Shown: in pieces, positions 4,166 through 34,617 of the stretch | Numbering within the stretch: the stretch's first letter is position 1 | Layout of the letters: every line of letters begins with the position of its first letter | NCBI GenBank assembly: GCA_013316825.1 | Contig: WSLY01000004.1 | Coordinates: forward strand, 1 to 64,000 | Reading direction: 5' to 3' | DNA from: Lachnospiraceae bacterium | Lineage (GTDB): Bacteria; Bacillota; Clostridia; Lachnospirales; Lachnospiraceae | DNA length: 64,000 nucleotides | Program-made: the position numbers and the translations under genes | Notes under the pieces: generated by a model | What the model saw: only the letters and a program-made list of their open reading frames with translations | Database searches by the model: none | What the model was told of the DNA's origin: nothing

Positions 4166-4303
4166 GATTTGGGATTGACTTTTGGGCGTTCTTATGGTAA
4201 CATATAAAGCGTTCGTAAGCGAATCCTGCGAAAATAGGGATTTAATCCTACGAATGTATGCAATATGTCCAGCATTTATCGGACTTTACGAGGTCTGCTC
4301 TGG

Positions 4304-4365
4304 CAGTTGGTAGAGCAGAGGACTGAAAATCCTCGTGTCACTGGTTCGATTCCGGTTCTGGGCAT
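4304..4365 (+). repeat. Right copy of 62-bp direct repeat (truncated tRNA-Phe)
   Basis: Identical to 119-180 but lacks the tRNA 5' acceptor strand. Confidence 0.85.
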
Positions 4366-4383: not shown

Positions 4384-4456
4384 GGAGCACTAGCTCAGTC
4401 GGTAGAGCACCTGACTTTTAATCAGGTTGTCGGGGGTTCGAATCCCCCGTGCTTCA
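4384..4456 (+). tRNA. tRNA-Lys (TTT)
   Basis: GGAGCAC/GTGCTTC acceptor, CTGACTTTTAATCAG anticodon arm, GGGGGTTCGAATCCCCC T-arm. Confidence 0.95.
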
Positions 4457-4457
4457 T
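4412..4457 (+). repeat. attL core (tRNA-Lys 3' part)
   Basis: TGACTTTTAATCAGGTTGTCGGGGGTTCGAATCCCCCGTGCTTCAT identical to 34572-34617. Confidence 0.9.
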
Positions 4458-4642: not shown

Positions 4643-5803
4643 CTAAGAAATTTTTTCACGGCTGCAGCCACGCTCCATGCCTGGCCGTATGCCGGACAGT
4701 TTGGCTTTCGTATCCTCCCTTTCTTCATCGAGCTGCGCATACACCCGCAGTATCATCTTTTCATCAGCATGCCCCATCAGTTCAACCGCTTTCTTCAGAG
4801 TGATTCCCGAATAGTATAAAATGGTCGCGTAGTTATACCGGAATACGCGGGAAGTAAGTCCGGATATCGGCTCCGGCACGCTGTCTGTGGCAACTGCGGC
4901 ATTCAGCGCTTTTACGATTCGCTTCCAGACGACGTAAAAATATGATTTGCTGTAGGGCTGTCCCTTGTTGGCAAACAAAAAAGCATTGTCAGCCTCAGAA
5001 AGCTCTTTTTTGATGTGCAGGGTATAAAACCTTACCTCCTCGATTAAAAAGGCGGGAATGGGTATCCGGCGGAAGCCTGAGGGGGATTTTGGTATATTTT
5101 TAAGGACGGGCTGGTTATTCTGGAAGATAATTACATGGTGGATAACCAGCTCCTCTGCCGGCAGGTCTATATCCTGCACCTGCAGGGCAAGAAGTTCTTC
5201 CAGACGCAGCCCGCAGCCGAAGAGCAGCATGACAAGCAAATGTTCCTGCGGCGGCAGGACGGCGCGGTTCAGCGCCTGTTCTTCCAGAGAGGTAAGGATT
5301 CGGCGTTTTGGTGGGGTATACTTGGGCATTTCTACCCGGTGCCACGGGGTATCCTGTATGTAATGGTCCTCCACGGCAGAGGAAAGTATCTGCTTTAAGA
5401 CAATCTTAATTTGCTGGCAGGTGCGCGGGTGGTCGGCATGCTCATTGATGAGCGCCTGTATGTCCGTCCGTTTAATGTCCGGCAGCAGCCATGTACCGAA
5501 CTGCGGAAGGAGGTACGTGTCCAGTATGGTGCGGTACATGCGCTGCGTGTTGTATTCCCTTGTGGACTTGTAGAGGGACACGAAGGTTTCTGCATATTCC
5601 TCAAAGGTGGTTTTCTTTCCAGCAATGTATTTCCCTGTTTTAATCTGGGCTTTCATGGCGTCTACTTTTTCTTCCAATTCCCTGCTGGTGCTGCCATACA
5701 TGGGTATCCTGACAGGTCTGCCGTAATCATCATATTCCCCTGTGTTTACCAGCGTGTAATAGCGTCCGTCTTTCCTTGGTTTGTAGCGGTTTTTTCTAGG
5801 CAT
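4643..5803 (-). CDS. Site-specific tyrosine recombinase (phage integrase)
   Basis: SAM-like core-binding domain and catalytic motifs (GLRLEELLAL, MGHADEKMILRVYAQ); RBS aggagg before MPRKNRY. Confidence 0.95.
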   Translation of the reverse strand: MPRKNRYKPRKDGRYYTLVNTGEYDDYGRPVRIPMYGSTSRELEEKVDAMKAQIKTGKYIAGKKTTFEEYAETFVSLYKSTREYNTQRMYRTILDTYLLPQFGTWLLPDIKRTDIQALINEHADHPRTCQQIKIVLKQILSSAVEDHYIQDTPWHRVEMPKYTPPKRRILTSLEEQALNRAVLPPQEHLLVMLLFGCGLRLEELLALQVQDIDLPAEELVIHHVIIFQNNQPVLKNIPKSPSGFRRIPIPAFLIEEVRFYTLHIKKELSEADNAFLFANKGQPYSKSYFYVVWKRIVKALNAAVATDSVPEPISGLTSRVFRYNYATILYYSGITLKKAVELMGHADEKMILRVYAQLDEEREDTKAKLSGIRPGMERGCSREKIS

Positions 5804-5956
5804 TGTATCGTCCTCCTGTGGGTACCATTCCGGCGACATTACCGCAATGGTGTAATTTTGGGCATAAAAATGCCCGGTAAATGCTTGCGGCTTACCGGGA
5901 AAGATGATACAATATGCTTGTGTTTGGCGTGTATCATCTTTTGGTGTACCGCTTTG

Positions 5957-5988
5957 CTGCTCCGGTTGACGCCGGGGCAGTTTTTTTA
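5957..5988 (+). terminator. Putative intrinsic terminator, + strand
   Basis: TGCTCCGG-TTGACG-CCGGGGCA followed by GTTTTTTT. Confidence 0.5.
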
Positions 5989-6690
5989 TTTACTTTGATT
6001 TAATTTATTCATATATCCAGCTGTGATAATGCCGGTAGGCAATGCAACTATGGCAATTCCCATAAAAGACGACATCATGCTTACAATACGTCCAAAGTCA
6101 CTTTTAGGGTAAATATCCCCATATCCGACAGTGGTTAATGTTACCACTGCCCAATAGATAGCGTCAAAAAAGGTTTCAAAACTGTCTGGCTCTACCTGAA
6201 ACATTATTAAAGCCGAACAGAGAATGTATCCGCCAGCCAAAACACATACAGCCATAAGAGCACGGCGTTCTTCCCGTACAACAGAAATAATTAGATTGAA
6301 GCTTTTTGAATAACGGAACAACTTTAAAACCTTAAACGCCCTGCTTAGCCGGAAAAGTTTTAGCAATTTAAATCCCGAATTAAGAACTGTAACGGATGAC
6401 ATAATGGATAATATATCAATAATAGCATAAATACTAAAAGGATATTTTAAAAAGGCAAATTTTCCGCTTTTTGGAAATTTAAAGTCAGCGGTCAGCCATC
6501 GGCACACATAGTCGATAATAAAAATAGTTACTGTGATACGCTCTATCCAAACAAAAAATATATTTGTCTGTTTGAAACATAAAGGTAATATGCTACAGAT
6601 AATACATATAAGCATAAAACGGTCATAGCATAGGCTTAAATTGTCATCTGGTTCAGCTAATTCTATTATTTGATATATTTTTTTTCTCAT
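5986..6690 (-). CDS. Voltage-gated potassium channel (6-TM)
   Basis: Selectivity filter TLTTVGYGD, S4-like RLSRAFKVLKLFRYSKS, about six hydrophobic segments. Confidence 0.93.
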   Translation of the reverse strand: MRKKIYQIIELAEPDDNLSLCYDRFMLICIICSILPLCFKQTNIFFVWIERITVTIFIIDYVCRWLTADFKFPKSGKFAFLKYPFSIYAIIDILSIMSSVTVLNSGFKLLKLFRLSRAFKVLKLFRYSKSFNLIISVVREERRALMAVCVLAGGYILCSALIMFQVEPDSFETFFDAIYWAVVTLTTVGYGDIYPKSDFGRIVSMMSSFMGIAIVALPTGIITAGYMNKLNQSK

Positions 6691-6714: not shown

Positions 6715-7344
6715 TTAAAACTTACCCCGTAGTTCAACTACTTTCCCTATAATTTTAACAGGTTTAGAAGATATATCCTCGTTGCTGAAAAACATTGGGG
6801 CATAGGCTGGGTTATTAGACACCAGTTCTATTCCGTCCCGATATTTCCTGAGTCGCTTGCAGGTAGCGTCGTCACCGTTTACCATGGCAATTACGATATC
6901 ACCAGATTCTGCGTCCTCTTGCTGCCGAACGATAACCACATCGCCCTCGCACATACGGGGTTCCATGGAATTGCCTTTTATCTGTAGTCCAAAGTATGTA
7001 CCAGTGGAAGCCATTTCCTGCGTGATTTCCTCAGTATCAATTACCTCTTCTACTGCTTCTATGGGAATTCCAGCGGCTACACGTCCAAGAACATTAATAA
7101 TAACACCTTGCTTTGTAATTCTATTAGGCTTGTCTTCTAATAAATCAGATTTGTTCACCCCAAAATAATCAGCTAGTAATTGTATTTTTCCTATTCGTGG
7201 AAGTTTTTGTCCTGTACACCAACTTGATACGGTGGAAGAACCTAGGTTTAAATCATTCATGAGGTCCATCTGATTTTTATTATTTAATTCCATGTAATAT
7301 TTCAATTTTTTTGCAAAGATAGCTTTATATCTTTCATCTGACAT
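6715..7344 (-). CDS. CI-like repressor (XRE HTH + S24/LexA-like peptidase)
   Basis: N-terminal HTH (NQMDLMNDLNLGSSTVSSWCTG) and S24 signature (LQIKGNSMEPRMCEGDVVIV). Confidence 0.93.
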   Translation of the reverse strand: MSDERYKAIFAKKLKYYMELNNKNQMDLMNDLNLGSSTVSSWCTGQKLPRIGKIQLLADYFGVNKSDLLEDKPNRITKQGVIINVLGRVAAGIPIEAVEEVIDTEEITQEMASTGTYFGLQIKGNSMEPRMCEGDVVIVRQQEDAESGDIVIAMVNGDDATCKRLRKYRDGIELVSNNPAYAPMFFSNEDISSKPVKIIGKVVELRGKF

Positions 7345-7493
7345 CAATAAAATCCTCCTAGTAGTTTGTATGATAGCACCAAAAATGAGATTTGACAACT
7401 ATTTTCTTTAAAATTCTCACTTTTGGTATTGACATTACACTGAAAGTGAGATAATATTCAATCAACAGCAGATGAAAAGAAAGGAGAAAAAGT
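7345..7493. promoter_or_regulatory. Divergent lysogeny control region
   Basis: Rightward TTGACA (7429)-17-TAATAT; leftward TTGTCA-17-TATCAT; operator-like AAA(A/G)TGAGA sites overlapping both promoters. Confidence 0.7.
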
Positions 7494-7703
7494 ATGAATG
7501 AATTAAAGATTTCTTTGGCAGCAGCAAGAGTAAATGCAAGAATGACACAAAGCCAAGTGGCAGAAAAAATGCACGTAGGAAAGCAAACAGTTGTTAGATG
7601 GGAAAATGGAAAAGCTGAACCGAAGACATCACAGGCAATAGAGTTATGTAAACTATATAATATACCGCTTGATAATATTTTTTTGCCTATAATTCCCACT
7701 TAA
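7494..7703 (+). CDS. Cro-like XRE-family regulator
   Basis: HTH ARMTQSQVAEKMHVGKQTVVRWENGKAEP; divergent from CI. Confidence 0.9.
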   Translation: MNELKISLAAARVNARMTQSQVAEKMHVGKQTVVRWENGKAEPKTSQAIELCKLYNIPLDNIFLPIIPT

Positions 7704-14886: not shown

Positions 14887-15075
14887 ATGGGAAGGGAATT
14901 ACCAATACTTTTTGATACGGACACGGTTTGTGCAGTATTAAGGAAACCGCCGGAAAATAAGACGGCTACCAGAAGAGCCATAAAAGGATATATACCGATG
15001 ACGCAGTATTTGGGTACACAGCATTTACGCCAAAAGGTTATTCTTGAAGAACTGCAGTTTTCACTGGAGGGGTGA
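14887..15075 (+). CDS. Small phage hypothetical protein
   Basis: RBS aaggag, start ATGGGAAGG, overlaps next CDS start. Confidence 0.55.
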   Translation: MGRELPILFDTDTVCAVLRKPPENKTATRRAIKGYIPMTQYLGTQHLRQKVILEELQFSLEG

Positions 15076-19293: not shown

Positions 19294-19695
19294 ATGGAAA
19301 ATTTTGAAAGCATTTATACGGATAAACAGCGGAAAACCAAAATAAAGAAAGAGCAGCAAAGACTTGAAGCCATATTCGAAAACATAGAAAACAACAAGAG
19401 AAAAACCGTCGAAAAATTGATAGAAAATGCTGCTTTCATGGCTGTGACGCTGGAGGAAACACGCCAGATAGTGGCGAGGGACGGCGTTGTGGAGGCTTAT
19501 CAGAACGGAGAAAACCAGAAGGGCGTGAAAAAGTCGGCGGCGGTGGAAGTGTATGACAAAATGGTGAATACCTACAGCAAAGTAATTAAACAGCTATGCG
19601 ACCTTATGCCAGCACAAATAATTCTAAATAAAGGAGAGGAAAAAAACAGCCCTGAAAAGGAAATTATGGATTTTATCAAGGGAGGCTATGGGTGA
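19294..19695 (+). CDS. Terminase small subunit (P27-like)
   Basis: Position directly upstream of large terminase; 133 aa helical. Confidence 0.7.
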   Translation: MENFESIYTDKQRKTKIKKEQQRLEAIFENIENNKRKTVEKLIENAAFMAVTLEETRQIVARDGVVEAYQNGENQKGVKKSAAVEVYDKMVNTYSKVIKQLCDLMPAQIILNKGEEKNSPEKEIMDFIKGGYG

Positions 19696-21362
19696 ACTGG
19701 GCACAGGAATACCTTGCAATGATTCGCTCCGGTGATGAGGTAGTATCAGATAAGGTCAAGACTGTTTATGAAAGGGAATGCAGCTGGATGAAAACCCCTC
19801 CGGCTGACTTCCCTTATTATTTTGACGAAGAAAGAGGGCAGCGCCATATTGACTTCATTGAAAAATTCTGTAGGCAGTCAAAGGGACGCTGGGGCGGCAT
19901 GCTCATGCAGTTGGAGCCATTCCAGAAAGCAAAATTGCAGTTATGCTTTGGCTGGCTGGAAAAAGGGACGAATCTGCGGCGCTTTAGGGAAGTGGTGGAT
20001 ATCCGCGGACGTAAATGCGGAAAATCAACAGAGACGGCTGCTGTCGAATGGGATATGGCGGTCAATGACGGGGAATCCGGCGCAGAGATATACTGTACGG
20101 CTAACAAGAAGGAGCAGGCAAACATTATATTTACCGAATGCGCAAACATGCGCCAACAGTCAAATGAACTGGCAGCAATATCTAAAAAGCGCCAGTCGGA
20201 TATTTATATACCTTTTTCCATGTCCTACATAAAATCGCTTGCTGCGGATACTTCCACGATGGACGGTCTCAACACACATTTTTTTTCCCTTGATGAGTGG
20301 CATGAGCAGCGGAACTCAAAATTGTATGATGTTATGATACAGTCCCAGTCCACAAGGGATCAGCCGCTTGCATGGCTTGTCAGTACAAATGGATTTGTCA
20401 GGGAGGGGTTTTTTGATGATAAATACGATGAGGCGGCAAATGTGGCAATGTGGAATCCCGGATTTGAAGATTACACCATGCTGCCGCTTATCTACGAACT
20501 CAATGAAAGGGAGAACTGGATGGAGCCCGAACACTGGGCGGAAGCCAATCCAGGACTGGGTAGAATTAAGAAGATTGAAACGCTGGCGGAATATGTAGCA
20601 AAAGCGAAGAGAAACCCTTCCTTTCTCCCCACAGTGCTGACAAAGGACTTTAATATCAAAGAAAATTCGGCAGAGGGGTGGCTTGGAGCTGACGCTATTA
20701 TCAATACAACCGTGGTGTCAATGGATTTTTTGAAAAATTCATACGCGGTGGGTGGCTGCGACCTGTCCAGCACGACCGACCTGACTTGCGCCACATTGTT
20801 AATCAGAAAACCGGAAGACAACCGGTTTTTTGTATTGCAGAAATATTTCCTGCCAAAGTCAAAAGTAAGCGCTGTTGACATAAAGGATAAACGGGAAGCC
20901 CCGTACAGAAGGTGGGAAAAAGAGGAATGGCTGTCTGTCAGTGACGGCGCAACAGTTGATTTCCATGCGGTGACGGAGTGGTTTGCGGGCATGGTGCGCC
21001 AGTATAATATCCGCCCGCTGTGGATTGGATATGACGCGGCACTGTCCGGTTACTGGAAGGAAGAAATGGAGGCATATGGGTTTGACATGGAAAAAATCAG
21101 ACAGGGCCCTTTTACTTGGACCTATCCTTTCAAGGAGCTGGGTGGATTGTTTGAGGAACACAGGATTTGTTACCAGAATAATCCGATACTCCGGTGGTGT
21201 CTTATGAATACGGCAAAGAAATCCACCAACAAGGACGGGATAGAAAGCATACAGCCGGTAAAAATCAACACATACCGGAGGATAGACGGGACAGTATCAC
21301 TGTTAAATGCATACACCTGCCTCAAGAACCATGAAGAGGAATATATTCGCTACATAAAGTAA
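19692..21362 (+). CDS. Terminase large subunit
   Basis: VDIRGRKCGKSTETA Walker A-like, FFSLDEWHE Walker B, GGCDLSSTTDLT nuclease region. Confidence 0.95.
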   Translation: MNWAQEYLAMIRSGDEVVSDKVKTVYERECSWMKTPPADFPYYFDEERGQRHIDFIEKFCRQSKGRWGGMLMQLEPFQKAKLQLCFGWLEKGTNLRRFREVVDIRGRKCGKSTETAAVEWDMAVNDGESGAEIYCTANKKEQANIIFTECANMRQQSNELAAISKKRQSDIYIPFSMSYIKSLAADTSTMDGLNTHFFSLDEWHEQRNSKLYDVMIQSQSTRDQPLAWLVSTNGFVREGFFDDKYDEAANVAMWNPGFEDYTMLPLIYELNERENWMEPEHWAEANPGLGRIKKIETLAEYVAKAKRNPSFLPTVLTKDFNIKENSAEGWLGADAIINTTVVSMDFLKNSYAVGGCDLSSTTDLTCATLLIRKPEDNRFFVLQKYFLPKSKVSAVDIKDKREAPYRRWEKEEWLSVSDGATVDFHAVTEWFAGMVRQYNIRPLWIGYDAALSGYWKEEMEAYGFDMEKIRQGPFTWTYPFKELGGLFEEHRICYQNNPILRWCLMNTAKKSTNKDGIESIQPVKINTYRRIDGTVSLLNAYTCLKNHEEEYIRYIK

Positions 21363-21372
21363 GGAGCCGGAA

Positions 21373-22587
21373 ATGGGTATTTTCAATAATTTATTTAAAA
21401 AAGTAAAAACAGTATTTGCAAACAGTTATTTCGGGTATCAGGCAAGAAGTTCCTCGTGGACTGCTGACGCATGGGAACATGATATTGTCCGTGGAATTGT
21501 GGACTGTATTGCCACACATGCAGCAAAGGGCATGCTGCAGCATGTAATAGTGGGAAAAGACGGGCGTATCAGTGAGACAAAGCGGGATAGCAGGATAGTC
21601 CGGCTGTTGAATGAAAAGCCTAATGACATTATGTCCGGATTTGAACTTAAATACCGCTTTTTTGCCCAGCTTGAAACGCAGACAACAGCCGTTTTATATA
21701 TAGAGTTTGAAAACGGGGAAGCGAAAGCGATATATCCGGTGGACTACAAGATGTTTGAGTTTCGCGAAGTGCAGGGCGGGGGCTGGGCAATCCTTTTTAC
21801 GGATTATGAGGGTGTAGAGCAGGTGCTGCCGCTGGAGTGCTGCGTGGTGGTAAGGAAGTTTTATAATTACCGGCAGGCAGCAGGTGACGGAAACAGGCCA
21901 ATCTATAATGTTCTGACCATGGCAAAGGCATCTGATGAGGGATTTGTACAGGCGCTTACAGTATCCAATAAGGTACGCGGTCTGATAAAGCAGAAAAAGG
22001 CAATGCTTGACCCCGAAGACGTTAAAAAGAGCCAGGAGGATTTTGCAAGGCGGTTTGAGGATGCCGCAAGCAAGGGCGGTATTGTCGGTATAGATTCCAT
22101 GGAAGAGTATGTTCCGCTGAATGTAAATACTTATGCCGCAAATGCGGCGCAGACAAAGGAAATTGCAGGGCGGTTTTATAGTTATTTCCGCACGCCGGAA
22201 GAGGTTGTGCAGAGCAGGTATACAGAGCAGACGGGACTTGCATGGTATGAGGCAGTAATAGAGCCGCTGTGGGAACAGCTTGCCGAAGCGTTGTCCAATG
22301 TGTATTTTTCATCAAGAGAAAAGGGTTGTGGAAATAAACTGGTTATTTCCGGCGGCGTGTTGATGGGTACGAGCTATCAGACAAGGGTAAACATTATAAA
22401 TACAACGAAAGAGCTTGGAATGCTCACAATCAACGAGCAGCGCGAGCTTTTAGGGTATGCCCCCATAGAGGGCGGGGATATCCGCCAGGTATCGCTGAAC
22501 TTTATAAATGCAGACAAACAGGATACATACCAGACAGGAAAGGAGAAAGAGGAGAAAAATGGAAAAACCGGAGAAAACGGGGAATGA
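21373..22587 (+). CDS. Portal protein (HK97 type)
   Basis: Size, position and YFRTPEEVVQSRYTE...IEPLWEQ motif. Confidence 0.93.
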   Translation: MGIFNNLFKKVKTVFANSYFGYQARSSSWTADAWEHDIVRGIVDCIATHAAKGMLQHVIVGKDGRISETKRDSRIVRLLNEKPNDIMSGFELKYRFFAQLETQTTAVLYIEFENGEAKAIYPVDYKMFEFREVQGGGWAILFTDYEGVEQVLPLECCVVVRKFYNYRQAAGDGNRPIYNVLTMAKASDEGFVQALTVSNKVRGLIKQKKAMLDPEDVKKSQEDFARRFEDAASKGGIVGIDSMEEYVPLNVNTYAANAAQTKEIAGRFYSYFRTPEEVVQSRYTEQTGLAWYEAVIEPLWEQLAEALSNVYFSSREKGCGNKLVISGGVLMGTSYQTRVNIINTTKELGMLTINEQRELLGYAPIEGGDIRQVSLNFINADKQDTYQTGKEKEEKNGKTGENGE

Positions 22588-23200
22588 CAGCAGGCAGTTG
22601 AGAAAGGGCGCAATGGCAAGGAGTTTTCAGATGCATGTGCGGGAAGCCGGAACGGAAGGCAGTGAAGGGGAAATGTGGGTGGAAGGGTATGCCGCAACCT
22701 TTGATTCCGAAACAGTCCTGTTTGAATTGGACGGGATTGAATACAAAGAAATGATATGCGAAGGCGCCTTTGATGGCTGCAAAATGGAAGATGTTATTTT
22801 TAATTACAACCATGGCGGCAAGGTTATGGCGAGGACCCGCAACGGTACCCTGCAACTAAGCATAGATGACAAGGGACTGCATATCAGGGCGCGCCTTGAT
22901 GGGACGGAAGAGGGCCGCAGGCTGTATGAGGAAATCAAAGGCGGATATATTGACCGGATGAGCTTTGCATTTACTATACGGGAAGAAAGCTACGATAAAG
23001 ATTCCCATTTGTGGAAGATACATGCAGTTAAGCGTTTGTATGACGTCAGTGCGGTGGATATTCCCGCTTATGATGATACATCAATTGAGGCAAGGAAGGA
23101 CTTTATTCTGGAGGCGGAAGCTCAGGAGAAAAGAGAACGTAAAGCGGAGGCTGAACTCCGGAAGCGGAAATTGGTGGCAGCTATAAAATTATCAATCTAA
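22559..23200 (+). CDS. Prohead maturation protease
   Basis: WVEGYAATFDSE..., FNYNHGG, GGYIDRMSFAFTI. Confidence 0.92.
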   Translation: MEKPEKTGNDSRQLRKGAMARSFQMHVREAGTEGSEGEMWVEGYAATFDSETVLFELDGIEYKEMICEGAFDGCKMEDVIFNYNHGGKVMARTRNGTLQLSIDDKGLHIRARLDGTEEGRRLYEEIKGGYIDRMSFAFTIREESYDKDSHLWKIHAVKRLYDVSAVDIPAYDDTSIEARKDFILEAEAQEKRERKAEAELRKRKLVAAIKLSI

Positions 23201-23214
23201 CAGGAGGAAAGAAA

Positions 23215-24387
23215 ATGTTAAAAAGATTACAGGAAATCGAGGCAAGAAAGAAGGAACTGCTGACAGAACTTGAAGGTGATGTCACAGAAGAGCGTATGGC
23301 GCAGATTGAGGCAGAACAGTCAGCTTTGGCGCAGGAGGAAAAAACACTGCGTAAAAAACTGGACATACGGGAAAGACTGGGGAACCGTACAGAATCACCG
23401 GAAGCAGGTGACGCGGACAGCGCGGAAACGCGTGCAAGACAGTTTGTGGAAACGAGGAGTACCACCATTTCTTCCGGCATGATTGCCGTGCCGTCAAACA
23501 CGCAGAATGAAGTAAACCCCACATTGGAATCGGGCAGAAGCATACTGGATATGGTGCGCGTGGAGGACTGCCTTGGCATGGGAAGCAATATTGTGCCGTA
23601 TGAAAAACATGGCATGGCAGCAGATACCAGCAAAGAGGGCGAATCAAAGTCAAGTGATTTTGTCACGGACTATGCGGAAATTAAGCCGGTAACAGTAACC
23701 GTTTATACGGAAGTATCCAGAGAAACAAGGAAACTTACGCCCGTGAAATATATGGAGGCGGTGCAGCGTGCAGCTACTGCAGCATTACGGAAAAAAGTAG
23801 CAGCGCTGGTTGTGTCATCTGATGCAGAAGAAAACACAGTATTTTTTGGAATCAACAAGGCAAAGGCATGCAAAGATTCCATAAAGGAAATTGACAGCAT
23901 TGACGCAACAACGCTGCGTGATATCATACTTTCCTTTGGCGGTGATGAGGATGTGGCAGGCGCGGCCGTGTTGCTGCTGACAAAGAAAGACCTGCAGGCT
24001 TTTGGCGCTATAAGGGGCGAAAAAGAAAAGAAACCGGTATATGAAATTATTCCAGACACACAGAATCCGAACAGCGGCGTCATCAAAGATGGGGGTCTGT
24101 CCTGCCGGTATTCTTTAAATTCCAGACTTACTGCGCTGAGTGACGCAACAGCAGAAAGCGATGTCATGTATTATGGCAAGCCGATGGCTTATGAGGTAGA
24201 TATATTTTCGGACTATACAATTACCGTTTCAGAGGAGGCAGCGCTTAAAAACAGAATGATTGCTGTACTTGGAGAGGTTATGGTGGGTGGCAATGTTACA
24301 ACCTATAACGGATTCCTTAAAATCAGAAAAAAAGGAACTGCTCAGGCAGCAGCGCAGCAGGAGTCTCCAAAAACAAATGAGGGTTAA
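23215..24387 (+). CDS. Major capsid protein (HK97 family)
   Basis: N-terminal coiled-coil delta domain followed by HK97-fold-like region; position. Confidence 0.92.
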   Translation: MLKRLQEIEARKKELLTELEGDVTEERMAQIEAEQSALAQEEKTLRKKLDIRERLGNRTESPEAGDADSAETRARQFVETRSTTISSGMIAVPSNTQNEVNPTLESGRSILDMVRVEDCLGMGSNIVPYEKHGMAADTSKEGESKSSDFVTDYAEIKPVTVTVYTEVSRETRKLTPVKYMEAVQRAATAALRKKVAALVVSSDAEENTVFFGINKAKACKDSIKEIDSIDATTLRDIILSFGGDEDVAGAAVLLLTKKDLQAFGAIRGEKEKKPVYEIIPDTQNPNSGVIKDGGLSCRYSLNSRLTALSDATAESDVMYYGKPMAYEVDIFSDYTITVSEEAALKNRMIAVLGEVMVGGNVTTYNGFLKIRKKGTAQAAAQQESPKTNEG

Positions 24388-24390
24388 TTT

Positions 24391-24678
24391 ATGCTGAGGG
24401 ATACGGTAAAAACGGCGCTCAGGCTTGGCGCGGCGGCGGGGGAGGCGCTTTCCCCTGAAATAGACCGGAATATTAAGGCAGCCCGTGCGGAGCTAATCCG
24501 CACGGGTGTGCCAGAACAAGCAGCAGAATCGGGACAGGCACTCATAGAAGATGCAATCGTTACATTCTGCCTTATGAAACTCGGAAACCAGAACCTATAT
24601 GAACGATACAGGGAAGCATGGGAGTATCAGATAGATTGTATCCGCAAGTCAGATATGGGGAGAATCAATGTACAATGA
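24391..24678 (+). CDS. Head-tail connector (gp6-like)
   Basis: Size and position. Confidence 0.7.
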   Translation: MLRDTVKTALRLGAAAGEALSPEIDRNIKAARAELIRTGVPEQAAESGQALIEDAIVTFCLMKLGNQNLYERYREAWEYQIDCIRKSDMGRINVQ

Positions 24679-25000
24679 AGTGATATGGTTTAGCACGTAC
24701 AAGCGGACGGATAAAATGGATAACAACGGCGACCCTGTGCTTGAAGAGGAGAAAACTTCCTTGATTTTTGCGCGAATCCGCTCCATCGGGCAGTCGGAAT
24801 TTTATCAGGCGCAGACAAACGGGTTTAAGCCGGAGATTAAATTTATTATACCGGATCATCTGGACTATGGCGGGCAGGAGTACCTGATTCATGGGGGTGT
24901 TCGGTATAAAATACTCAGGACATTCCGCAATGAGCAGAATGAGTTGGAAATAACATGTTACGGAGGTGTAAGAGATGTCAGTGCCGCCATCAGTGACTAA
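24668..25000 (+). CDS. Head-tail adaptor
   Basis: SIGQSEFYQAQTNGFKPEIKFIIPDHLDYGGQEYLIHGG pattern. Confidence 0.8.
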   Translation: MYNEVIWFSTYKRTDKMDNNGDPVLEEEKTSLIFARIRSIGQSEFYQAQTNGFKPEIKFIIPDHLDYGGQEYLIHGGVRYKILRTFRNEQNELEITCYGGVRDVSAAISD

Positions 25001-25427
25001 AATCAATAAAGACGGTGTGGAATTTGTTTCCAGTGTGGACAGGGCGAGCTATACCATGAAAGAACTGTGCAGGGCAGCGTTAAGGGACGTGGGAAAGTTT
25101 GTGTGCAAAAAATTCCGGACAGCGTACTATAACGCTTTTAGGAAGCAGAGAGGGAGAGTCGGCAGGTTTACGCAGTACTGGGTAAAACATAAATATGAAG
25201 ACTATCCTAATCTGCAGGTAGGCGTAAGACCAAATGCGTTTTATGGCGGGTTTCAGGAGCTTGGCAGCAGTAAAACGCCACGAATGGGGCTGCTGCAAAA
25301 GGCTGTTTCCGATAACACCACGGAAATCATAAAAATAGAAAGCCAATACCTTTCTGCGCTGGAAGATGAAGCTGAAGCCCTTTCCCTGATAAGCGAAGAG
25401 GATTATGAAGGAGATGGAGGAGAATGA
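24975..25427 (+). CDS. HK97-gp10-like head-tail protein
   Basis: Size and position; overlapping start. Confidence 0.75.
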   Translation: MSVPPSVTKINKDGVEFVSSVDRASYTMKELCRAALRDVGKFVCKKFRTAYYNAFRKQRGRVGRFTQYWVKHKYEDYPNLQVGVRPNAFYGGFQELGSSKTPRMGLLQKAVSDNTTEIIKIESQYLSALEDEAEALSLISEEDYEGDGGE

Positions 25428-25777
25428 GCCAAAGCCTAAAACAAGTGCTTGAAGAGCTGACAGGGGCATATTACGAAGAAGCACCGAAGGACACAGCGTA
25501 TCCATATGCGGTTTTTTCCATGAGGCGCATATCAGAAGCCGATGGCAGACAGTCTTACAGCCTTGAAATCAATGTATGGGACCAGCACGCATATTATTCC
25601 CGTGCGGAAAACATGATGGACGCACTGGAAAAGAAACTGCACCGGACCAATCATTTGACAGGTGAATATCTTATCCGCATATTTAAGGGAGCAAGACAAA
25701 ACGTGCCGGACCCGGACAAGAGTATCAAACGGATAAGGGAACAATTTGAATTATATGTCTATGAAAGAGAGGATTGA
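25424..25777 (+). CDS. Tail completion/terminator-like protein
   Basis: Size and position. Confidence 0.7.
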   Translation: MSQSLKQVLEELTGAYYEEAPKDTAYPYAVFSMRRISEADGRQSYSLEINVWDQHAYYSRAENMMDALEKKLHRTNHLTGEYLIRIFKGARQNVPDPDKSIKRIREQFELYVYERED

Positions 25778-25780
25778 CAA

Positions 25781-26443
25781 GTGAAAAAGAAAAAAGTTTT
25801 TTCTGGATTTACCAGAACGACACCAGAGCATCTGCTTTTAGACGCAGGTGCTTTTTTTAAAAACTTTATTTATGAGCCTGGCGGAACGGGGAATGATACC
25901 TATGATTCAGCCGTTTCTGCAGGCAAATTGATTGGAGCCACAAAAGGCGGCGGTGAGTTTTCTGCGGTACCTGCAGTCAGACAGATTGAGGTTGACGGCG
26001 TAAAGGGAAGGGCAAAGGGACTTGAAGTAATTGATTCATGGGACGTTTACCTAAAAGCAACTGTTCTGGAAGCCACATCGGAATCCATCAAAGCGGCCCT
26101 CTGCGCTTCCACGGTGGACACAGAATTGGATGCGGAATACGACATAATTGAGGGAAATTCCTCAATTGATCTGGAAGATTATGTTGATAATGTTACGTGG
26201 ATAGGAAAGCTTAGTGGTTCTGACAGCCCTGTTATCATACAGGTTTACAATGCATTAAATACGGACGGGCTAAAACTGACGGTACAAGATAAAGCGGAGG
26301 CGACTATCCCAATGACTTTTTACGGGCACTATTCACAGGAAGAGCTTGACGCGCCGCCGTTTAAGGTTTTTTATCCCAAAAAGAAGACAGCAGGAATTAT
26401 AGAGAGTGCAACAGAAGGAGGTAAGGTCAATGAGGAAAATTAA
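25781..26443 (+). CDS. Major tail protein
   Basis: Size, position before chaperones. Confidence 0.8.
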   Translation: MKKKKVFSGFTRTTPEHLLLDAGAFFKNFIYEPGGTGNDTYDSAVSAGKLIGATKGGGEFSAVPAVRQIEVDGVKGRAKGLEVIDSWDVYLKATVLEATSESIKAALCASTVDTELDAEYDIIEGNSSIDLEDYVDNVTWIGKLSGSDSPVIIQVYNALNTDGLKLTVQDKAEATIPMTFYGHYSQEELDAPPFKVFYPKKKTAGIIESATEGGKVNEEN

Positions 26444-26777
26444 CACGGGAGATATATTTAAACTGGCAAGAATTGTAACAGGAACGAATATGACGAAAAT
26501 CATAACAGAGGCATATCAGCAAGGGAAAAAGGAAGGTGCAGATGCAGAGACGATAGGGATAAATACAGCCATGGAACTTATGGTTTCCTGTAGTAGTAAT
26601 CAAACAGAAGGCATGTTTTATTCCCTTTTGGCCGGAATATGTGAAAAAGAACCCTGCGACATTGAGACGCAGCCTTTTGAACAGACGGTAAATGACATAA
26701 AACAGATTGTGAAAGAAAATGACATCATGAATTTTTTTACGCAGGCGTCCAGATTAGCCAAAGCTATCAAAAAATAA
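26430..26777 (+). CDS. Tail assembly chaperone G-like
   Basis: Position between major tail protein and tape measure. Confidence 0.75.
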   Translation: MRKINTGDIFKLARIVTGTNMTKIITEAYQQGKKEGADAETIGINTAMELMVSCSSNQTEGMFYSLLAGICEKEPCDIETQPFEQTVNDIKQIVKENDIMNFFTQASRLAKAIKK

Positions 26778-26782
26778 CAGAT

Positions 26783-27046
26783 TTGGTTTTTAGGCGGTAT
26801 GGAGGAAATGTGAAAGACATTTTTTCCATGCCGTTTTTTGATGGTTATGAATTGATAAGCTACGCGCTGGATGCAGAACTGGAAGAAAAACTCTTCGTGC
26901 GATGGGTGGCCGGATATCAGTTTGCTATGGAGTTTAAGGAATTTAAGAGACAAGCGGGTGGGAACACCGGCATGGTCAATGTGGCAAAAGCAGATAACAG
27001 GACGGCGGGAGAGATTCTTAACACGGTAAAGGAAATAATCGGGTGA
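26783..27046 (+). CDS. Tail assembly chaperone T-like (likely expressed by -1 frameshift)
   Basis: Lies in -1 frame relative to upstream ORF; open from the C AAA AAA T run at 26768. Confidence 0.7.
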   Translation: MVFRRYGGNVKDIFSMPFFDGYELISYALDAELEEKLFVRWVAGYQFAMEFKEFKRQAGGNTGMVNVAKADNRTAGEILNTVKEIIG

Positions 27047-27050
27047 GATT

Positions 27051-28877
27051 ATGGAAATTTTTAAGTTGTTTGGCTCCATTTTTGTAAAAACAGATGACGC
27101 GGATAAAAGCATACAGAAAACTGAGAAAAGTGCGGAGAGTTTAGCTGCAAAGTTCGGAAATGGGATAAAGACAGCGGCAAAGTGGGGCGCTGCGATTGCG
27201 ACGGGAGCAACCGTAGCAGGAACGGCAATATTCGGTCTTGCAACCAGTGCAGCAGGGACAGCAGATGAAATAGATAAAATGTCCCAGAAAATAGGGATAT
27301 CAACAGAGGCATATCAGGAATGGTCTTATGTCATGGGACAGAATGGCATGGACGTAGACAAATTAGCCACAGGCATGAAAACATTGGTGTCCCAGATGGA
27401 CAAGGCCGCGAATGGAACGGCTTCTGCGCAAGAAAATTTTGATAAATTAGGAGTATCCATTTATAACGCAGATGGAAGCCTGAAAGATCAAGAGACTTTG
27501 CTGAATGAAGTCATGCATGCATTGGCAGACATGGAAAATGGTACTGAAAAAGCACAAATAGCAACTGAGCTTTTTGGAAAAGCCGGAATTGAAATGATGC
27601 CGATGCTGAATCAGGGCGCGGATGCAATGGACGAACTGACGCAGCGTGCACATGATTTAGGGCTTGTGATGTCAGAAGATGCAGTAAGTGCTGGCGTAAA
27701 ATTAGGTGACACCATAGACGACATTAAAAAATCATTTTCCATGATAGGCACTAATCTTGGTAGCGCGGTTATACCAATTATACAGCAGTTTGCAGATATC
27801 ATCATAGATAATATGCCAATGATACAGCAGACAATAGGTACGCTGGCTCCAATATTGGCAAATGTCGCGGGGAGTATACTTCCGGTAATCGCGCAATTGG
27901 CGCAGACTTTACTTCCTGTCATCGTCGAGCTGATTAACCAATTATTACCGGTATTTGCACAGATAACCGAGGCGATACTCCCTGTGTTTACGGAATTATT
28001 AGGCATGTTGCTTCCGCCGCTGATACAGATAACACAGTCCCTTATGCCGCTGCTTGTAACAGTCCTTAACGCAGTTGCGCCGCTGCTTGGCCTGCTGATG
28101 GAACTGCTTGCCCCCATTATACAGCTTTTTGTTGATTTATTAGTCCCGATTGTGGACATCATTTCGCGGGCGCTGCAGCCACTCATAGAAATCATATCCG
28201 TGCTGATAAGCGCCGGACTGCAGCCGCTGGTAGATGCCGTGAAAGTAGTCGGAGAAGTGTTCAGCGCTGTCCTGTCGGGGATATTTGAGTTTGCAGGTCC
28301 CATCATAGACAATATCATAGGCGTCTTTCAGGGCATTACCACATTCCTGAAGGGTGTTTTTTCAGGCGATTTTAAGATGGCTTTTCAGGGGATAGTGGAC
28401 ACGGTTTCCAATATATTCGGCGGCATTATAAACATAGTTAAAATGCCAATCAACGCCATTATTGACCTGATAAACGGTTTTATCGCAGGACTTAATAAGA
28501 TTAAGATACCGGACTGGGTACCAGGTGTAGGCGGCATGGGTATTAATATCAAGCCGATTCCCAGACTATACACAGGCGGACTTGTCGGCGCGGGACAGTT
28601 GATATCCACAAATGAGCATGAGCCGGAAATTATTGGTAATTATGGAAATAAAACGCTTGTCATGAATAATGCGCAGATTATCGATACCATGGTCGGGGCA
28701 ATTTCTGCTACCATGGAGTCTTTCATTGAAAGAATCACGTCTCTTATGGGAAATAATGCGGCGGCAGCAGGCGACATTATTATCCCTATTTATTTAGGCA
28801 ATGAAATACTTGAGGATATCATCGTGGATGCAAAGGAACGGATTGTGAGAAGGTCAGGAGGACGCGCAAATGCATAA
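27051..28877 (+). CDS. Phage tail tape measure protein
   Basis: 608 aa, TMP-like N-terminus, hydrophobic LP-rich repeats. Confidence 0.92.
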   Translation: MEIFKLFGSIFVKTDDADKSIQKTEKSAESLAAKFGNGIKTAAKWGAAIATGATVAGTAIFGLATSAAGTADEIDKMSQKIGISTEAYQEWSYVMGQNGMDVDKLATGMKTLVSQMDKAANGTASAQENFDKLGVSIYNADGSLKDQETLLNEVMHALADMENGTEKAQIATELFGKAGIEMMPMLNQGADAMDELTQRAHDLGLVMSEDAVSAGVKLGDTIDDIKKSFSMIGTNLGSAVIPIIQQFADIIIDNMPMIQQTIGTLAPILANVAGSILPVIAQLAQTLLPVIVELINQLLPVFAQITEAILPVFTELLGMLLPPLIQITQSLMPLLVTVLNAVAPLLGLLMELLAPIIQLFVDLLVPIVDIISRALQPLIEIISVLISAGLQPLVDAVKVVGEVFSAVLSGIFEFAGPIIDNIIGVFQGITTFLKGVFSGDFKMAFQGIVDTVSNIFGGIINIVKMPINAIIDLINGFIAGLNKIKIPDWVPGVGGMGINIKPIPRLYTGGLVGAGQLISTNEHEPEIIGNYGNKTLVMNNAQIIDTMVGAISATMESFIERITSLMGNNAAAAGDIIIPIYLGNEILEDIIVDAKERIVRRSGGRANA

Positions 28878-29217
28878 CCTGCTTGTTATTAACGGGACTG
28901 AGTTTCCCACGCCGGAAGGGAGCTTTGATGTAAAATACAAGGACACAACCAATGAATATAACGGAGAAAACGGAAAAAAGACAATAGAAATCATTAGAAG
29001 GGACGTATGTAGCATATCAGTCACTTACAATGGACTGGAAGAGGACAGGGCAAACACACTACATAATGCCCTGTCCACAGTCAATGAAGTCACGTTTCGT
29101 AAAAAAGGTATCATGGTAACAGTGGAAATGAAACTGTCTGATGTGAGCGTTCCAAAGAAGTATTATAAAAACGGGCTGTCTGTGTGGGGCATGTCTTTTA
29201 GTCTGGAAGAATTGTAG
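28870..29217 (+). CDS. Tail protein
   Basis: Position after TMP. Confidence 0.7.
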   Translation: MHNLLVINGTEFPTPEGSFDVKYKDTTNEYNGENGKKTIEIIRRDVCSISVTYNGLEEDRANTLHNALSTVNEVTFRKKGIMVTVEMKLSDVSVPKKYYKNGLSVWGMSFSLEEL

Positions 29218-29225
29218 GAGGTAAT

Positions 29226-31022
29226 ATGCAGGCACAGTCAAACGCGTACAGGGAAGCACTGTATGAATCCTATGTTGTACAGAGCACCATTACAGGAAAC
29301 ATAACAGCGCCAACGGGTGAAATATATGACTTAACTGATAATGATATTATTCCTGGCTCCCTGAACAAAAATAATAAATGCGTCAACGGCAGCAGTTTTG
29401 AGCTGGGTTCCGTGTTTCAGGGGGAGCTTAACGTGACGCTGCGGAAAACACTGGATAGGTACCGGATTAACGGCGGCAGCATTACCTTCACGGAACGCAG
29501 ATATCTAAAGGACGGGACGGAAGAGGACGTAAAAATCGGTAAATTTTATATTGCATCTGCTGACAGAAAAGGAAAACTGACAACGATAAAAGCAGTCGAC
29601 CGGATGGATTTACTGGAAATAGATGTATCGGATAACATGGTCGGTACGCCCTATGAACTGCTTTTAATGCTTTCCGAAAAGTGCGGCGTGGAGCTGGCAC
29701 AGACAGAAGAGGAGATTATGAAACTGCCGAACGGGGCTGAAATGTTTTCTGTTTATGTGGACACAACGGGTACATACCGTGATATGGCTGCCTATCTTGG
29801 CATGGTGACAGGCACCTTTGTCACGATAAACGTGGACGATAAGCTGGAACTTAGGCAATATGCCATCGCGGACTGTCTGGAAGTACCCTCCGGAAAAAGA
29901 AGCAGCGGAAGCACGGTAATAGCGGATTATGTGACCTATTACAGAGGTGTCACGGCGAGGTTTATTGCAGAAAACAATTATGCCGCGTATACCTATGAGG
30001 ATAACACCATCACAGGCGGTTTAATGCTTGATTTGGGCGATATCCCGATAGTGAGAGGGCTGCCACAGAGGAAACATGCCATACTGGAATCTTTGTTTTC
30101 CGTGATAAGGCAGATAGTATATATCCCTGCCGAGTTTACGCTGGTGACAAGTGACGCAGCGCTGGAACTGGGTGACAGGATTGGAATAGACGGGGAAAAT
30201 GCAAGCACATATGTCACAAGCTATAGCTGGATATACCATGGGTCAGAAAAAATAAAAGGTGTCGGTGATAACCCGAGACTTAAGGCGGCAGGTGATAAAA
30301 ACACAAAACGTCTGGCAAACATGGAAGAGGAGATAAAGGCAAAAGACATTGTTGTCCATTCCTATACCAATGCCTCCGCCCTCACCATAGGAGCGGAAGA
30401 GCAGACCATCATCACCTTTAACTTTGCCACCATAGCAGACACGCACCCTGTATTCCTTGCCACCGTGCCCCTTTCCATGGACAGGGACGGGAACCTGGTG
30501 CTGCGGTATTACCTTGACGGCGTTTTTGGGGACGTGCTCAGGAAGTACCTGCAGCGGGGAGAGCATTTTGTGACCCTGGGCAGCCATTTTACCGTGGAAA
30601 AAGACAAAAGGGTCATGCTGCAGGTCACGGCCGCCACGGAATACCATGACAGCGACACAAGGCGGCAGGCAGCCGCCCTGAAGGCGCTGGAAAACTTTGC
30701 GGGGACAGGGGAATATGTCCCCGTTTCCGCCGATAAAAGCATTCCGGCAGCAGGGATTGCCCGCGGGACCATACGGGCGGTGCTCTATGCCCAGGGCATG
30801 GCGGGCGCGGCGTCATGGGACGGCACCATAACGGTGTCGGAAGCCATTGCAGAAATGGGGCTTCCCATGCTTCCCCCGGCAGGCACGGCGGCAGTGCCCA
30901 GCGTGGCGCATGTGCCGCTGAAACGGCAGGGCATAAGCGCGCCCGTGCCGGAAATGGGGCTTAAGGGGCTTTCCCTGCCTGGCATATCCGCAGGGGTATC
31001 CTGCACCACGGAAACCGGATAA
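29226..31022 (+). CDS. Phage minor tail protein
   Basis: Size, position. Confidence 0.75.
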   Translation: MQAQSNAYREALYESYVVQSTITGNITAPTGEIYDLTDNDIIPGSLNKNNKCVNGSSFELGSVFQGELNVTLRKTLDRYRINGGSITFTERRYLKDGTEEDVKIGKFYIASADRKGKLTTIKAVDRMDLLEIDVSDNMVGTPYELLLMLSEKCGVELAQTEEEIMKLPNGAEMFSVYVDTTGTYRDMAAYLGMVTGTFVTINVDDKLELRQYAIADCLEVPSGKRSSGSTVIADYVTYYRGVTARFIAENNYAAYTYEDNTITGGLMLDLGDIPIVRGLPQRKHAILESLFSVIRQIVYIPAEFTLVTSDAALELGDRIGIDGENASTYVTSYSWIYHGSEKIKGVGDNPRLKAAGDKNTKRLANMEEEIKAKDIVVHSYTNASALTIGAEEQTIITFNFATIADTHPVFLATVPLSMDRDGNLVLRYYLDGVFGDVLRKYLQRGEHFVTLGSHFTVEKDKRVMLQVTAATEYHDSDTRRQAAALKALENFAGTGEYVPVSADKSIPAAGIARGTIRAVLYAQGMAGAASWDGTITVSEAIAEMGLPMLPPAGTAAVPSVAHVPLKRQGISAPVPEMGLKGLSLPGISAGVSCTTETG

Positions 31023-31068
31023 AAACATGGTAAAAACCGGATAAAAAAGAAAAAAGGAGGACAAGACA

Positions 31069-32601
31069 TTGCTGAAAGGAAGCGCGGAAATAGAACTGCG
31101 TGACGAAAGGACGGGGGAAACAACATATGTGAAGCATGAGAACATGCTCACGGACGGGCTGTCCATTGCACTCACGCCCCAGACAGGGCGGTACACCTAC
31201 CCCACAGGGTACCAGGGCGGGAGCGGCGCGCCGGAGACGGACGAACAGAAGATGAATCACAACCGCTCCGTCATGGACCACCTGCTTGGCGGGGTGTTCC
31301 TGTTCGGGGAAACCCTGCAGGAAAGCGCGGGGAACCTGGAAATGCCGCTGGGAGCCCTTATCGGGAAGGGAGCGCACAATGCATACTCCGGCGTGGACAC
31401 GAAACGGGGGAGCTACAACGGGAAGGAGAGCGGGCTGCAGCCGGACGGCTCCTACCGGCACGTGTGGGACTTTGCCACATCACAGGCAAACGGCACCATA
31501 CGCGCCCTTGCCCTTACCACCCACGCAGGGGGAATCGAGGGGGACGGCACGCGGGAATGGAACTCGGCGCAGACGGCGGAAAGCGCGCCCCTCTACCACA
31601 TGCTGAACGCAGGGAGCAGCAGTTACGGCGCATACCTGAAATATCCGGCCGGCATGTCGGGGAGCTGTTTCCTTTTTGCGTCCTTCCAGAAAAACCGCAT
31701 ATACGCCGTAAAGGACCGTTACGAGATTACCTACAACACCAGCGGGGACAATCCTGACAGGTATTTCCAGAACAGCAGGAAGCTCCATGTCATGGAGTAC
31801 GGCTTTCCGCTGTCTGGGATATCCCCCTTTTATGACGGCTACAACCTTTACAGGGTGCAGGAGCATGAAATTGAAGTGCCGGAGGAATACGTTTCCCACT
31901 TTACGTCCGTACAGGGAAACCTGTACACCTGCGTGGGCGGCAGCCATGTATACCTGTACAGGAACGGAATGAGCTACCGGAAAGGGGAGGAGATAAAAAT
32001 ACTGAGGCTTGCAAAAGACACCCTGGAGGCAGACGTGGTTTCCTTCCCGAACGTGACCGGCACAAGCCTGACTTTTTCAGGCGGCATGAACTATATTCCG
32101 GCAAACCTGTGGCTGACGGACACCCATGCCTACATAACGGCAGTGGAAACGGAGGACAATGTTTACCACAGCTATGTGTACAGGATAAGCCTTTCGGACG
32201 GCACGGACGCGGCGAGGGCGGAGCTCAGGGACAGGGACGGTAACAGCATAAACGGTACTTTCGTGTTCTGCGGCTGCAGGGGCAGGCACATCATCATGGG
32301 GCTGCGGTACAGCAACAGCTACAGCAGTTCTTCCTATTACCCCATGCTCCTTGACCCTTCAACGCTTGAAGCGGTGTACCTTAATGCAGCTATCATAAAT
32401 TCAAGCACCAATGCTGTATTCCATTATGAAAAGCTTACGGAAGGGCTGTACCTCAGCGTGAGCTCGCAGACAGGCGGGAATTTTAACTTTATCCCTGCCC
32501 TTGACCCCTGCATGCTGATGACGGTCAACAACCTGTCCGCACCGGTGGAAAAGACTGCGGCGCAGAGCATGAAGGTGACATACACCATAACGGAAACATA
32601 A
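31069..32601 (+). CDS. Tail/receptor-binding-like protein
   Basis: Position between tail and lysis genes. Confidence 0.65.
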   Translation: MLKGSAEIELRDERTGETTYVKHENMLTDGLSIALTPQTGRYTYPTGYQGGSGAPETDEQKMNHNRSVMDHLLGGVFLFGETLQESAGNLEMPLGALIGKGAHNAYSGVDTKRGSYNGKESGLQPDGSYRHVWDFATSQANGTIRALALTTHAGGIEGDGTREWNSAQTAESAPLYHMLNAGSSSYGAYLKYPAGMSGSCFLFASFQKNRIYAVKDRYEITYNTSGDNPDRYFQNSRKLHVMEYGFPLSGISPFYDGYNLYRVQEHEIEVPEEYVSHFTSVQGNLYTCVGGSHVYLYRNGMSYRKGEEIKILRLAKDTLEADVVSFPNVTGTSLTFSGGMNYIPANLWLTDTHAYITAVETEDNVYHSYVYRISLSDGTDAARAELRDRDGNSINGTFVFCGCRGRHIIMGLRYSNSYSSSSYYPMLLDPSTLEAVYLNAAIINSSTNAVFHYEKLTEGLYLSVSSQTGGNFNFIPALDPCMLMTVNNLSAPVEKTAAQSMKVTYTITET

Positions 32602-32606
32602 GGCAG

Positions 32607-32648
32607 TAAGGGAGCCGCAGGCATGGACGCCGCGCGGCTCCCTTTTTG
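32607..32648 (+). terminator. Putative intrinsic terminator
   Basis: AGGGAGCCG ... CGGCTCCCT followed by TTTTT. Confidence 0.75.
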
Positions 32649-32679
32649 TAGACAAAACAAAGAAAGAGAGGACAACAGA

Positions 32680-33177
32680 ATGGAAAAAATGAAAATGGCG
32701 GTAATTGCGGCGCTGTCGGCGCTCATGGCATGGATGGGGGTGCTGGCCGTGCCGGTACTCCTGCTGGTAGGCTGCAACCTGATTGACTACGTGACGGGGC
32801 GTCTGGCCGCAAAGTACCGGACACAGGAAATCACAAGCTACAAGGGACTTAAAGGAATCATCAAAAAAGTGTGCATGTGGCTGCTCATCGTGGTGGGCGC
32901 GGTGGTGGACGTCCTGATAAACTACGCGCTGGAAAACATCGGGGCGGGCTTTGAACTGCCCTTTATCGTGGCTGTCGTGGTGGCGGTATGGCTGCTGGTG
33001 AATGAGATTATCAGCATACTGGAAAACGTGATGGACATCGGCGTAACCATACCGCCCTTCCTCCTGCCGCTGGTAAAGAACATCAAAAGGCAGATAGAGG
33101 ACACGGCGGCGCCCGCGGCGGAAGGGCAGGAAGCAGAAACAGGGGAAAACGGAATGCAGGAGGATACAGATGATTAA
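32680..33177 (+). CDS. Holin (toxin secretion/phage lysis holin family)
   Basis: MEKMKMAVIAALSALMAWMGVLAVPVLLLVGCNLIDYVTGRLAAKYR...SYKGLKGIIKKV. Confidence 0.93.
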   Translation: MEKMKMAVIAALSALMAWMGVLAVPVLLLVGCNLIDYVTGRLAAKYRTQEITSYKGLKGIIKKVCMWLLIVVGAVVDVLINYALENIGAGFELPFIVAVVVAVWLLVNEIISILENVMDIGVTIPPFLLPLVKNIKRQIEDTAAPAAEGQEAETGENGMQEDTDD

Positions 33178-34571: not shown

Positions 34572-34617
34572 TGACTTTTAATCAGGTTGTCGGGGGTTCG
34601 AATCCCCCGTGCTTCAT
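34572..34617 (+). repeat. attR core
   Basis: Identical to 4412-4457. Confidence 0.9.

Follow-up and report, generated by a model that had tools for sequence, protein, structure and literature searches.

A gene for a voltage-gated potassium channel of the Kv type is carried in the window (the whole analysed stretch of 64,000 nucleotides) by a prophage, where it lies between the CI-type repressor gene and the integrase gene on the strand of both, and it is almost certainly a variable cargo (moron) gene of this interval. Judged by the gene orders compared here, many gut-type temperate phages seem to carry such a channel gene beside their dormancy switch. The product would be an accessory channel expressed in lysogeny, whose most likely role, put forward tentatively, is the protection of the lysogen against other phages.

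The open reading frame starts with ATG, contains no internal stop and has exactly the bounds entered in Table 1. Its translation matched the Pfam families Ion_trans (PF00520; 92.2 bits, cut-off 25) and Ion_trans_2 (62.6 bits, cut-off 22.5), and a sequence search returned KCNQ2 (E 8.8e-21) and Kv2.1 (E 1.8e-20) as the nearest proteins of solved structure. The S4 helix follows the pattern K-x-x-K-x-x-R-x-x-R-x-x-K-x-x-K-x-x-R-x-x-K. In the AlphaFold2 model, which was built with 43 sequences (mean pLDDT 85.9, pTM 0.67), the helices are arranged as S1-S4, S5, pore helix and S6, and the matches obtained with this model by Foldseek against the PDB were Kv/KCNQ channels, the top query TM-score among the 50 matches listed being 0.83, for Kv4.2 (7ukf). 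Among predicted viral protein structures, no match to the model was found up to E 0.001, and the weaker matches named potassium channel were short or partial only. Filter, S4 ladder and modelled fold together identify the predicted product as an ordinary voltage-gated K+ channel. It is like the KCNQ/Kv channels in these three respects, including the six-helix fold; the T1, RCK and cyclic-nucleotide domains form the usual domain make-up of animal Kv channels, from which the window Kv differs in being minimal, with none of the three, and in being encoded by a prophage. The Kv-type family is labelled 'unknown function' in PHROGs (phrog_7872), and the window gene alone gave an Ion_trans match in the 2.37 Mb assembly, which is 73% complete.

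The prophage measures 30.2 kb, is inserted in tRNA-Lys and is bounded by perfect 46-bp direct repeats; from these att repeats and from the genes for packaging, head, tail and lysis, it looks complete. The earlier note had described a six-helix protein with an S4-like segment and the filter TVGYGD, located between integrase and CI and on the same strand as both. The first part of this description was confirmed by Pfam, by the eight-charge S4 and by the predicted Kv fold, and the second was verified by Pfam and annotation of the neighbours. When the whole lysogeny module was compared with phage records at the DNA level, no full-length match was found.

Table 1. Coordinates of the channel gene, the lysogeny module and the prophage ends in the window
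Feature	Position	Strand	Remarks
att repeat, left copy	4412..4457		overlaps tRNA-Lys (4384-4456), covering most of it
Tyrosine integrase	4643..5839	-	
Terminator-like hairpin	5873..5899	-	9-bp stem, then CATTTTTATG; between Kv and int
12-bp perfect inverted repeat	5900..5941		AAAGATGATACA / TGTATCATCTTT
Kv-type potassium channel gene	5986..6690	-	234 aa, six transmembrane helices and pore helix
Selectivity filter TVGYGD	6115..6132	-	residues 187-192
S4 voltage-sensor helix	6304..6369	-	K/R at eight consecutive third positions, K108-K129
CI-type repressor	6715..7398	-	HTH and S24 peptidase; start probably ~7344
Promoter-like TTGTCA-17-TATCAT, extended -10	7370..7398	-	5' of likely CI start; consensus match only
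Divergent Cro-like HTH regulator	7494..7703	+	
Terminase, portal, protease, capsid, tail, tape measure, holin and endolysin genes	19692..34048	+	
att repeat, right copy	34572..34617		46/46 identical to left copy

Several further features of the same DNA deserve mention. The tRNA-Lys gene is preceded at about 4296-4364 (+) by a tRNA-like sequence with a CTGAAAA anticodon loop, for which ARAGORN gave no call, and a series of short ORFs in shifting frames at 2813-4207 (+) resembles, by eye, a decayed transposase gene. A phage-type C5 DNA methylase (phrog_116) is encoded at 12807-14411 (+), its Pfam match being split in two stretches and its later part containing the near-repeats PLPTITT and PLHTVTT, while a PAPS-reductase-like gene (phrog_424) lies at 15072-16190 (+) in the early region of the prophage.

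The stop codon of ci and the start of the channel gene are separated by 24 nt. This short gap, together with the promoter-like site before CI and the terminator-like hairpin after Kv, makes joint transcription of ci and Kv in the lysogen likely, the site at 7370..7398 being a candidate promoter of the pair. The 146-nt interval between Kv and int folds far better than its shuffles (z -7.0), and its minimum-energy fold consists of other stems than the hairpin. The idea that a terminator closes every Kv operon of this kind was rejected, such an element being present in only 6 of 25 lysogeny-module loci.

Recurrence of the channel was surveyed on viral contigs and in bacterial genomes. The window sequence used singly gave no match on viral contigs, while an alignment of six close relatives as query yielded 80 viral-contig loci and 80 bacterial-genome loci (L024 and L028 stand outside the neighbourhood set, and L112 and L114 yielded no channel ORF). 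Neighbouring genes were called longest ORF first, with no trained gene finder, and the labels CI, integrase (tyrosine or serine) and ImmA come from small purpose-built HMMs, some 'none' labels being misses. Close viral loci, defined by at least 170 bits to the window Kv, number 43, and 21 of them have CI no more than three genes upstream and an integrase no more than four genes downstream, all on one strand; the same arrangement surrounds 5 of 253 control genes (unlabelled, 150-400 aa, from the same stretches). With window, phage and genome loci included, both genes flank Kv in 25 loci (22 clusters at 90% Kv identity) and at least one of them in 38 (31 clusters at the same identity). The 29 downstream integrases, four of which are serine recombinases, form 21 clusters at 40% identity, and the 34 CIs beside Kv form 23; since these flanking proteins are mostly mutually unrelated, the channel is tied to the place and not to one phage lineage. 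Dulem virus 33 encodes a channel of the window Kv's own lineage (lineage A), with 56% identity to it, which overlaps CI by 4 nt and is followed further on by int, and the order CI, Kv, integrase is also found in the distant loci L078 and L079.

A channel tree of 180 sequences was computed with FastTree after 5 of 185 sequences, all shorter than 150 aa, had been removed. On this tree, many forks of which are open, the setting changes 30 times between lysogeny module and elsewhere, a count below that of every one of 500 shuffles, and at least 16 of the changes are forced by well-supported branches. By this measure the lysogeny-module label is clustered on the tree, yet it has moved often. Some matches were not taken as examples: the Acinetobacter phage matches H4 and H5 were set aside, the stretch around H4, with acnB and tamB, reading as chromosomal, and the Kv-like gene of Halorubrum virus Humcor1 is outside any lysogeny module in the stretch seen. 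On IMGVR_UViG_2684622596_000002 (L253, L284), two different Kv genes were observed, one adjoining CI-type genes and one elsewhere.

A second lineage (lineage B) shares about 30% identity with the window Kv and is found in Enterococcus/Lactobacillus-type phages, a label that denotes similarity to Efs 1-1-1, PLE2 and JNU_P5. The gene order in Lactobacillus casei phage PLE2 is CI, metallo-protease, Kv, two genes and integrase; the channel of this phage is gp27 (YP_009282368.1), and L. casei BL23 with PLE2 is a laboratory lysogen. L. fermentum phage JNU_P5 has a regulator, a small gene and an ion transporter in a PLE2-like order. The scan of viral contigs with a PLE2-type query returned 41 loci, and in the 40 that were scored, CI stands upstream in 39, an integrase downstream in 37 and both in 36, many of these loci being near copies (8 clusters at 90%). 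Kv is thus seen to recur after CI in two lineages (21/43 and 36/40). The earlier note had held that absence of the gene from this locus in related prophages would speak against its inference; such absence fails as a general statement, Kv recurring in many unrelated prophages, but it does hold for the closest relative phage found, which is without Kv.

Selection on the channel was evaluated in both lineages. Among module members of lineage A, dN/dS lies between 0.04 and 0.32 in those pairs that allowed a computation, and in lineage B its median is 0.19 (244 computable of 252 pairs), many of these pairs sharing ancestry and not being independent. Of 108 lineage A sequences, 105 have the filter T[VMI]GYGD and the other three gave no match; the median number of consecutive third-position charges in S4 is nine in 38 module members and eight in 67 others. 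The low dN/dS, the retention of the filter and the long S4 ladders indicate that the channels have been kept working, voltage sensor included, and by these measures the prophage Kv genes are under strong purifying selection. As a side observation, the ladders of the lineage A module channels comprise 7 to 11 consecutive third-position K/R and are slightly longer than those of non-module relatives. It is very improbable that the gene is a passenger without benefit, caught from the chromosome and retained by chance; its presence is indeed patchy inside phage groups, but dN/dS far below 1, the conserved filter, the long ladders and the repeated, independent placement in one slot are hardly compatible with such an origin.

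The exchangeable nature of the slot is illustrated by the nearest relative of the window phage. The closest integrase found (69%) belongs to IMGVR_UViG_3300010278_000016 (L195), which has a CI at 61% and ends at the same tRNA-Lys site. The DNA similarity between this contig and the window takes in the complete CI stop codon, down to 6715, breaks off there and restarts at 5985, one base past the Kv gene. The slot is filled in L195 by a 501-aa protein (L195:4349-5854 (+)) with T5orf172 and MUG113 domains, which matches the PADLOC model PD-Lambda-1 at 7.6e-81 and in which a simple hydropathy count detected no transmembrane helix. PD-lambda-1, which has been renamed SNIPE, is described in the available text of PMC13190303 as a membrane-bound nuclease of direct defence that cuts phage DNA during injection. 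This swap between Kv and a homologue of a membrane-anchored nuclease, a protein of another family, in the nearest relative favours the defence reading.

Other exchanges were observed around more distant repressors. In L241 (CI 58%), the repressor gene is followed without a gap by a lineage B Kv, whose identity to the window Kv is 33% across 186 residues, and the integrase has no more than trace similarity to that of the window; going by these alignments, a repressor of the window's type has been combined with another Kv. In L242 (CI 46%), the slot is occupied by a 74-aa protein that appears zinc-ribbon-like by eye. Because the integrase search in 392 genomes of the order returned only two others at E 1e-60, the slot comparisons were mainly made on viral contigs. 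In lineage B, 25 contigs have integrases of at least 97% identity, of which 9 carry Kv, 2 run from ImmA straight to the integrase and the remaining 14 encode other proteins, in several cases lipoproteins or membrane proteins by eye; four more contigs of this type (integrase 83-84%) comprise three without Kv and one that begins inside the integrase. When a Kv-bearing member was aligned with a Kv-less one, similarity broke just past the ImmA stop and resumed in the last Kv codons.

These comparisons bear on the idea that the channel is a part of the phage life cycle, which would influence how lysogeny is established or left, for example through a steadier membrane that delays holin triggering or stress-linked induction, or would report the energy state of the host. 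Its seat in the CI operon would suit such a part, and a 0-nt interval between Kv and int, seen in 4 of 25 loci, would allow the two to be transcribed together there. Nevertheless, the channel is dispensable, as judged from the nine carriers among the 25 phages with nearly identical integrases, and unrelated genes take its place, so that this explanation is considered improbable.

Genes with a known or suspected part in defence were also detected in and near the slot. A SIR2 protein (L283:7321-8940 (+); PDC-S25, 3.4e-187) is encoded between a lineage B Kv and the integrase, AbiD-type proteins occupy the same position in two lineage B loci tested (1.1e-27 and 2.4e-22), and a further lineage B phage has, between Kv and integrase in its lysogeny module, a SLATT/DUF4231 protein and, next after it, a ThsB-like TIR protein (4.2e-15), the two lying at L285:7214-8256 (+). 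The latter two genes resemble a small sensor-effector defence pair. In addition, 31 CI-integrase intervals were picked by CI/integrase similarity regardless of Kv, with both CI and INT HMM-positive and with L240 left out as lying on the same contig as L195, and Kv was present in one of them. Of the 31 slot proteins of at least 70 aa in this set, no more than 4 matched PADLOC at 1e-5, namely PD-Lambda-1 (one, also PDC-S57), PDC-M24B (one) and PDC-M03B (two); among the others, small proteins of secreted, membrane or unknown type predominate. Most occupants of the slot thus appear to be without a known defence role, which counts against the defence reading.

The channel family itself was considered as well. 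No model of PADLOC-DB 2.0.0 matches Kv of lineage A or lineage B, and no excess of defence genes was found within two genes of the non-module relatives, where 139 near proteins gave 6 PADLOC families, each represented by one protein, versus 35 for 139 far proteins; both lists were limited to proteins below 700 aa, 139 of 152 near proteins being kept and the 139 far ones being drawn from those of this size among 331. The proposal that the whole Kv family belongs to defence islands was rejected, PADLOC matches being fewer near these relatives than far from them. The company kept in the slot, set against this lack of excess, means that defence is suggested by the slot and not by the channel family.

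The main rival to defence is lysogenic conversion unrelated to phages, in which the channel would help the host to keep its K+ and membrane potential steady, to tolerate acid or osmotic stress, or to signal electrically in dense communities, and we regard it as possible, though doubtful. Homeostasis and electrical signalling are what Kv channels may do in bacteria. Relatives with about 33-59% identity occur outside lysogeny modules and away from defence genes, in Lachnospiraceae, Bacteroidales and other contigs, and the setting changes forced on the tree imply that phage and chromosomal copies interchange, both of which fit a general service to the host. It does not account for the preference for the place after CI in two lineages, for the replacement of Kv by a single SNIPE gene, or for the neighbours of the AbiD, SIR2 and TIR types.

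Under the preferred reading, defence of the lysogen, the channel would be transcribed together with CI, as the gene order suggests, and would stay closed as long as the cell is at rest. When a phage injects its DNA, the cell is depolarised and K+ leaks out. The injection by an incoming phage may accordingly be pictured as depolarising the membrane and opening Kv, whereupon K+ efflux would clamp the membrane near the K+ potential, and the clamped potential might hinder the rest of the genome from entering or stop the growth of the infected cell. By analogy, depolarisation by an incoming phage is a conceivable trigger, which is proposed with considerable reserve, and the later steps are drawn from the behaviour of Kv channels and from the parallel of the chlorovirus channel Kcv. 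A K+ channel opened by depolarisation would tend to repolarise the cell and could equally serve plain homeostasis.

Several known systems are related to this scheme in part. RexAB of the P. putida prophage P1, a relative of lambda RexAB, is presented in the accessible portion of PMC12894663 as a lysogeny-expressed membrane effector near CI. RexAB consists of two proteins, a DNA-binding sensor and a membrane effector, whereas sensor and effector would be united in the window in one polypeptide with its own voltage sensor and K+ filter, and no RexA-like partner is present there between CI and Kv, int following the channel. Kv as a homologue of RexB was rejected, neither Pfam, nor PDB sequence search, nor fold lending support. 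The earlier inference of a prophage defence or membrane-potential effector is thus sustained in that the gene is an accessory member of the lysogeny module and the slot swap favours defence, while its RexB parallel holds as an analogy only. According to the part of PMC3952083 available, Ltp of Streptococcus phage TP-J34 is a superinfection-exclusion lipoprotein that blocks DNA injection and is transcribed in the prophage state. Ltp has the same place in the lysogeny module next to int and is membrane-associated like Kv; it is a secreted lipoprotein, whereas the window protein is a channel by Pfam and predicted fold. The chlorovirus Kcv, as outlined in the text available of PMC7019647, is a K+ channel of 82-94 aa in the internal membrane of the virion, and the depolarisation linked to it prevents a second infection. 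Kcv is a virus-encoded K+ channel like the window Kv, but it comes from algal viruses and is pore-only, with about 80-100 aa, in contrast to a 234-aa prophage gene product with a voltage sensor. A membrane protein that affects the membrane potential, PdpSau, is encoded in the lysis module of an S. aureus prophage, as stated in the section available of PMC10127798.

In the open-licence PMC literature, no study of a Kv channel as a prophage defence was found, and the sole mention found of a prophage Kv concerns Oenococcus sicerae, where a putative KQT-type channel is listed as ORF4 and the integrase as ORF1 (PMC9867325). In the text available of that paper, the gene is mentioned as a salient feature, without family, slot or function. 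A C. difficile paper that also came up deals with a ferrous ion transporter and has no bearing on Kv. The Kv channel type itself and lysogeny-module cargo genes such as Ltp and Rex are already known; what appears to be new within the open-licence literature is the repeated presence of at least two Kv lineages behind CI in various temperate phages, and their exchange for a homologue of a proven defence gene.

Bacterial Kv channels are numerous, and their roles are mostly unsettled. A selected, repeated place in the lysogeny module and the exchange with a homologue of a proven defence gene offer a concrete, testable role for them, and the presence of Kv in this module suggests that membrane voltage may act as a signal of infection. 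Temperate phages of Firmicutes may, as a possibility that is still open to much doubt, have repeatedly recruited Kv channels as one-gene anti-phage devices that take the membrane potential as the signal of infection. If this is true, the voltage sensor would read the depolarisation caused by a phage, and the pore would answer at once by K+ efflux.
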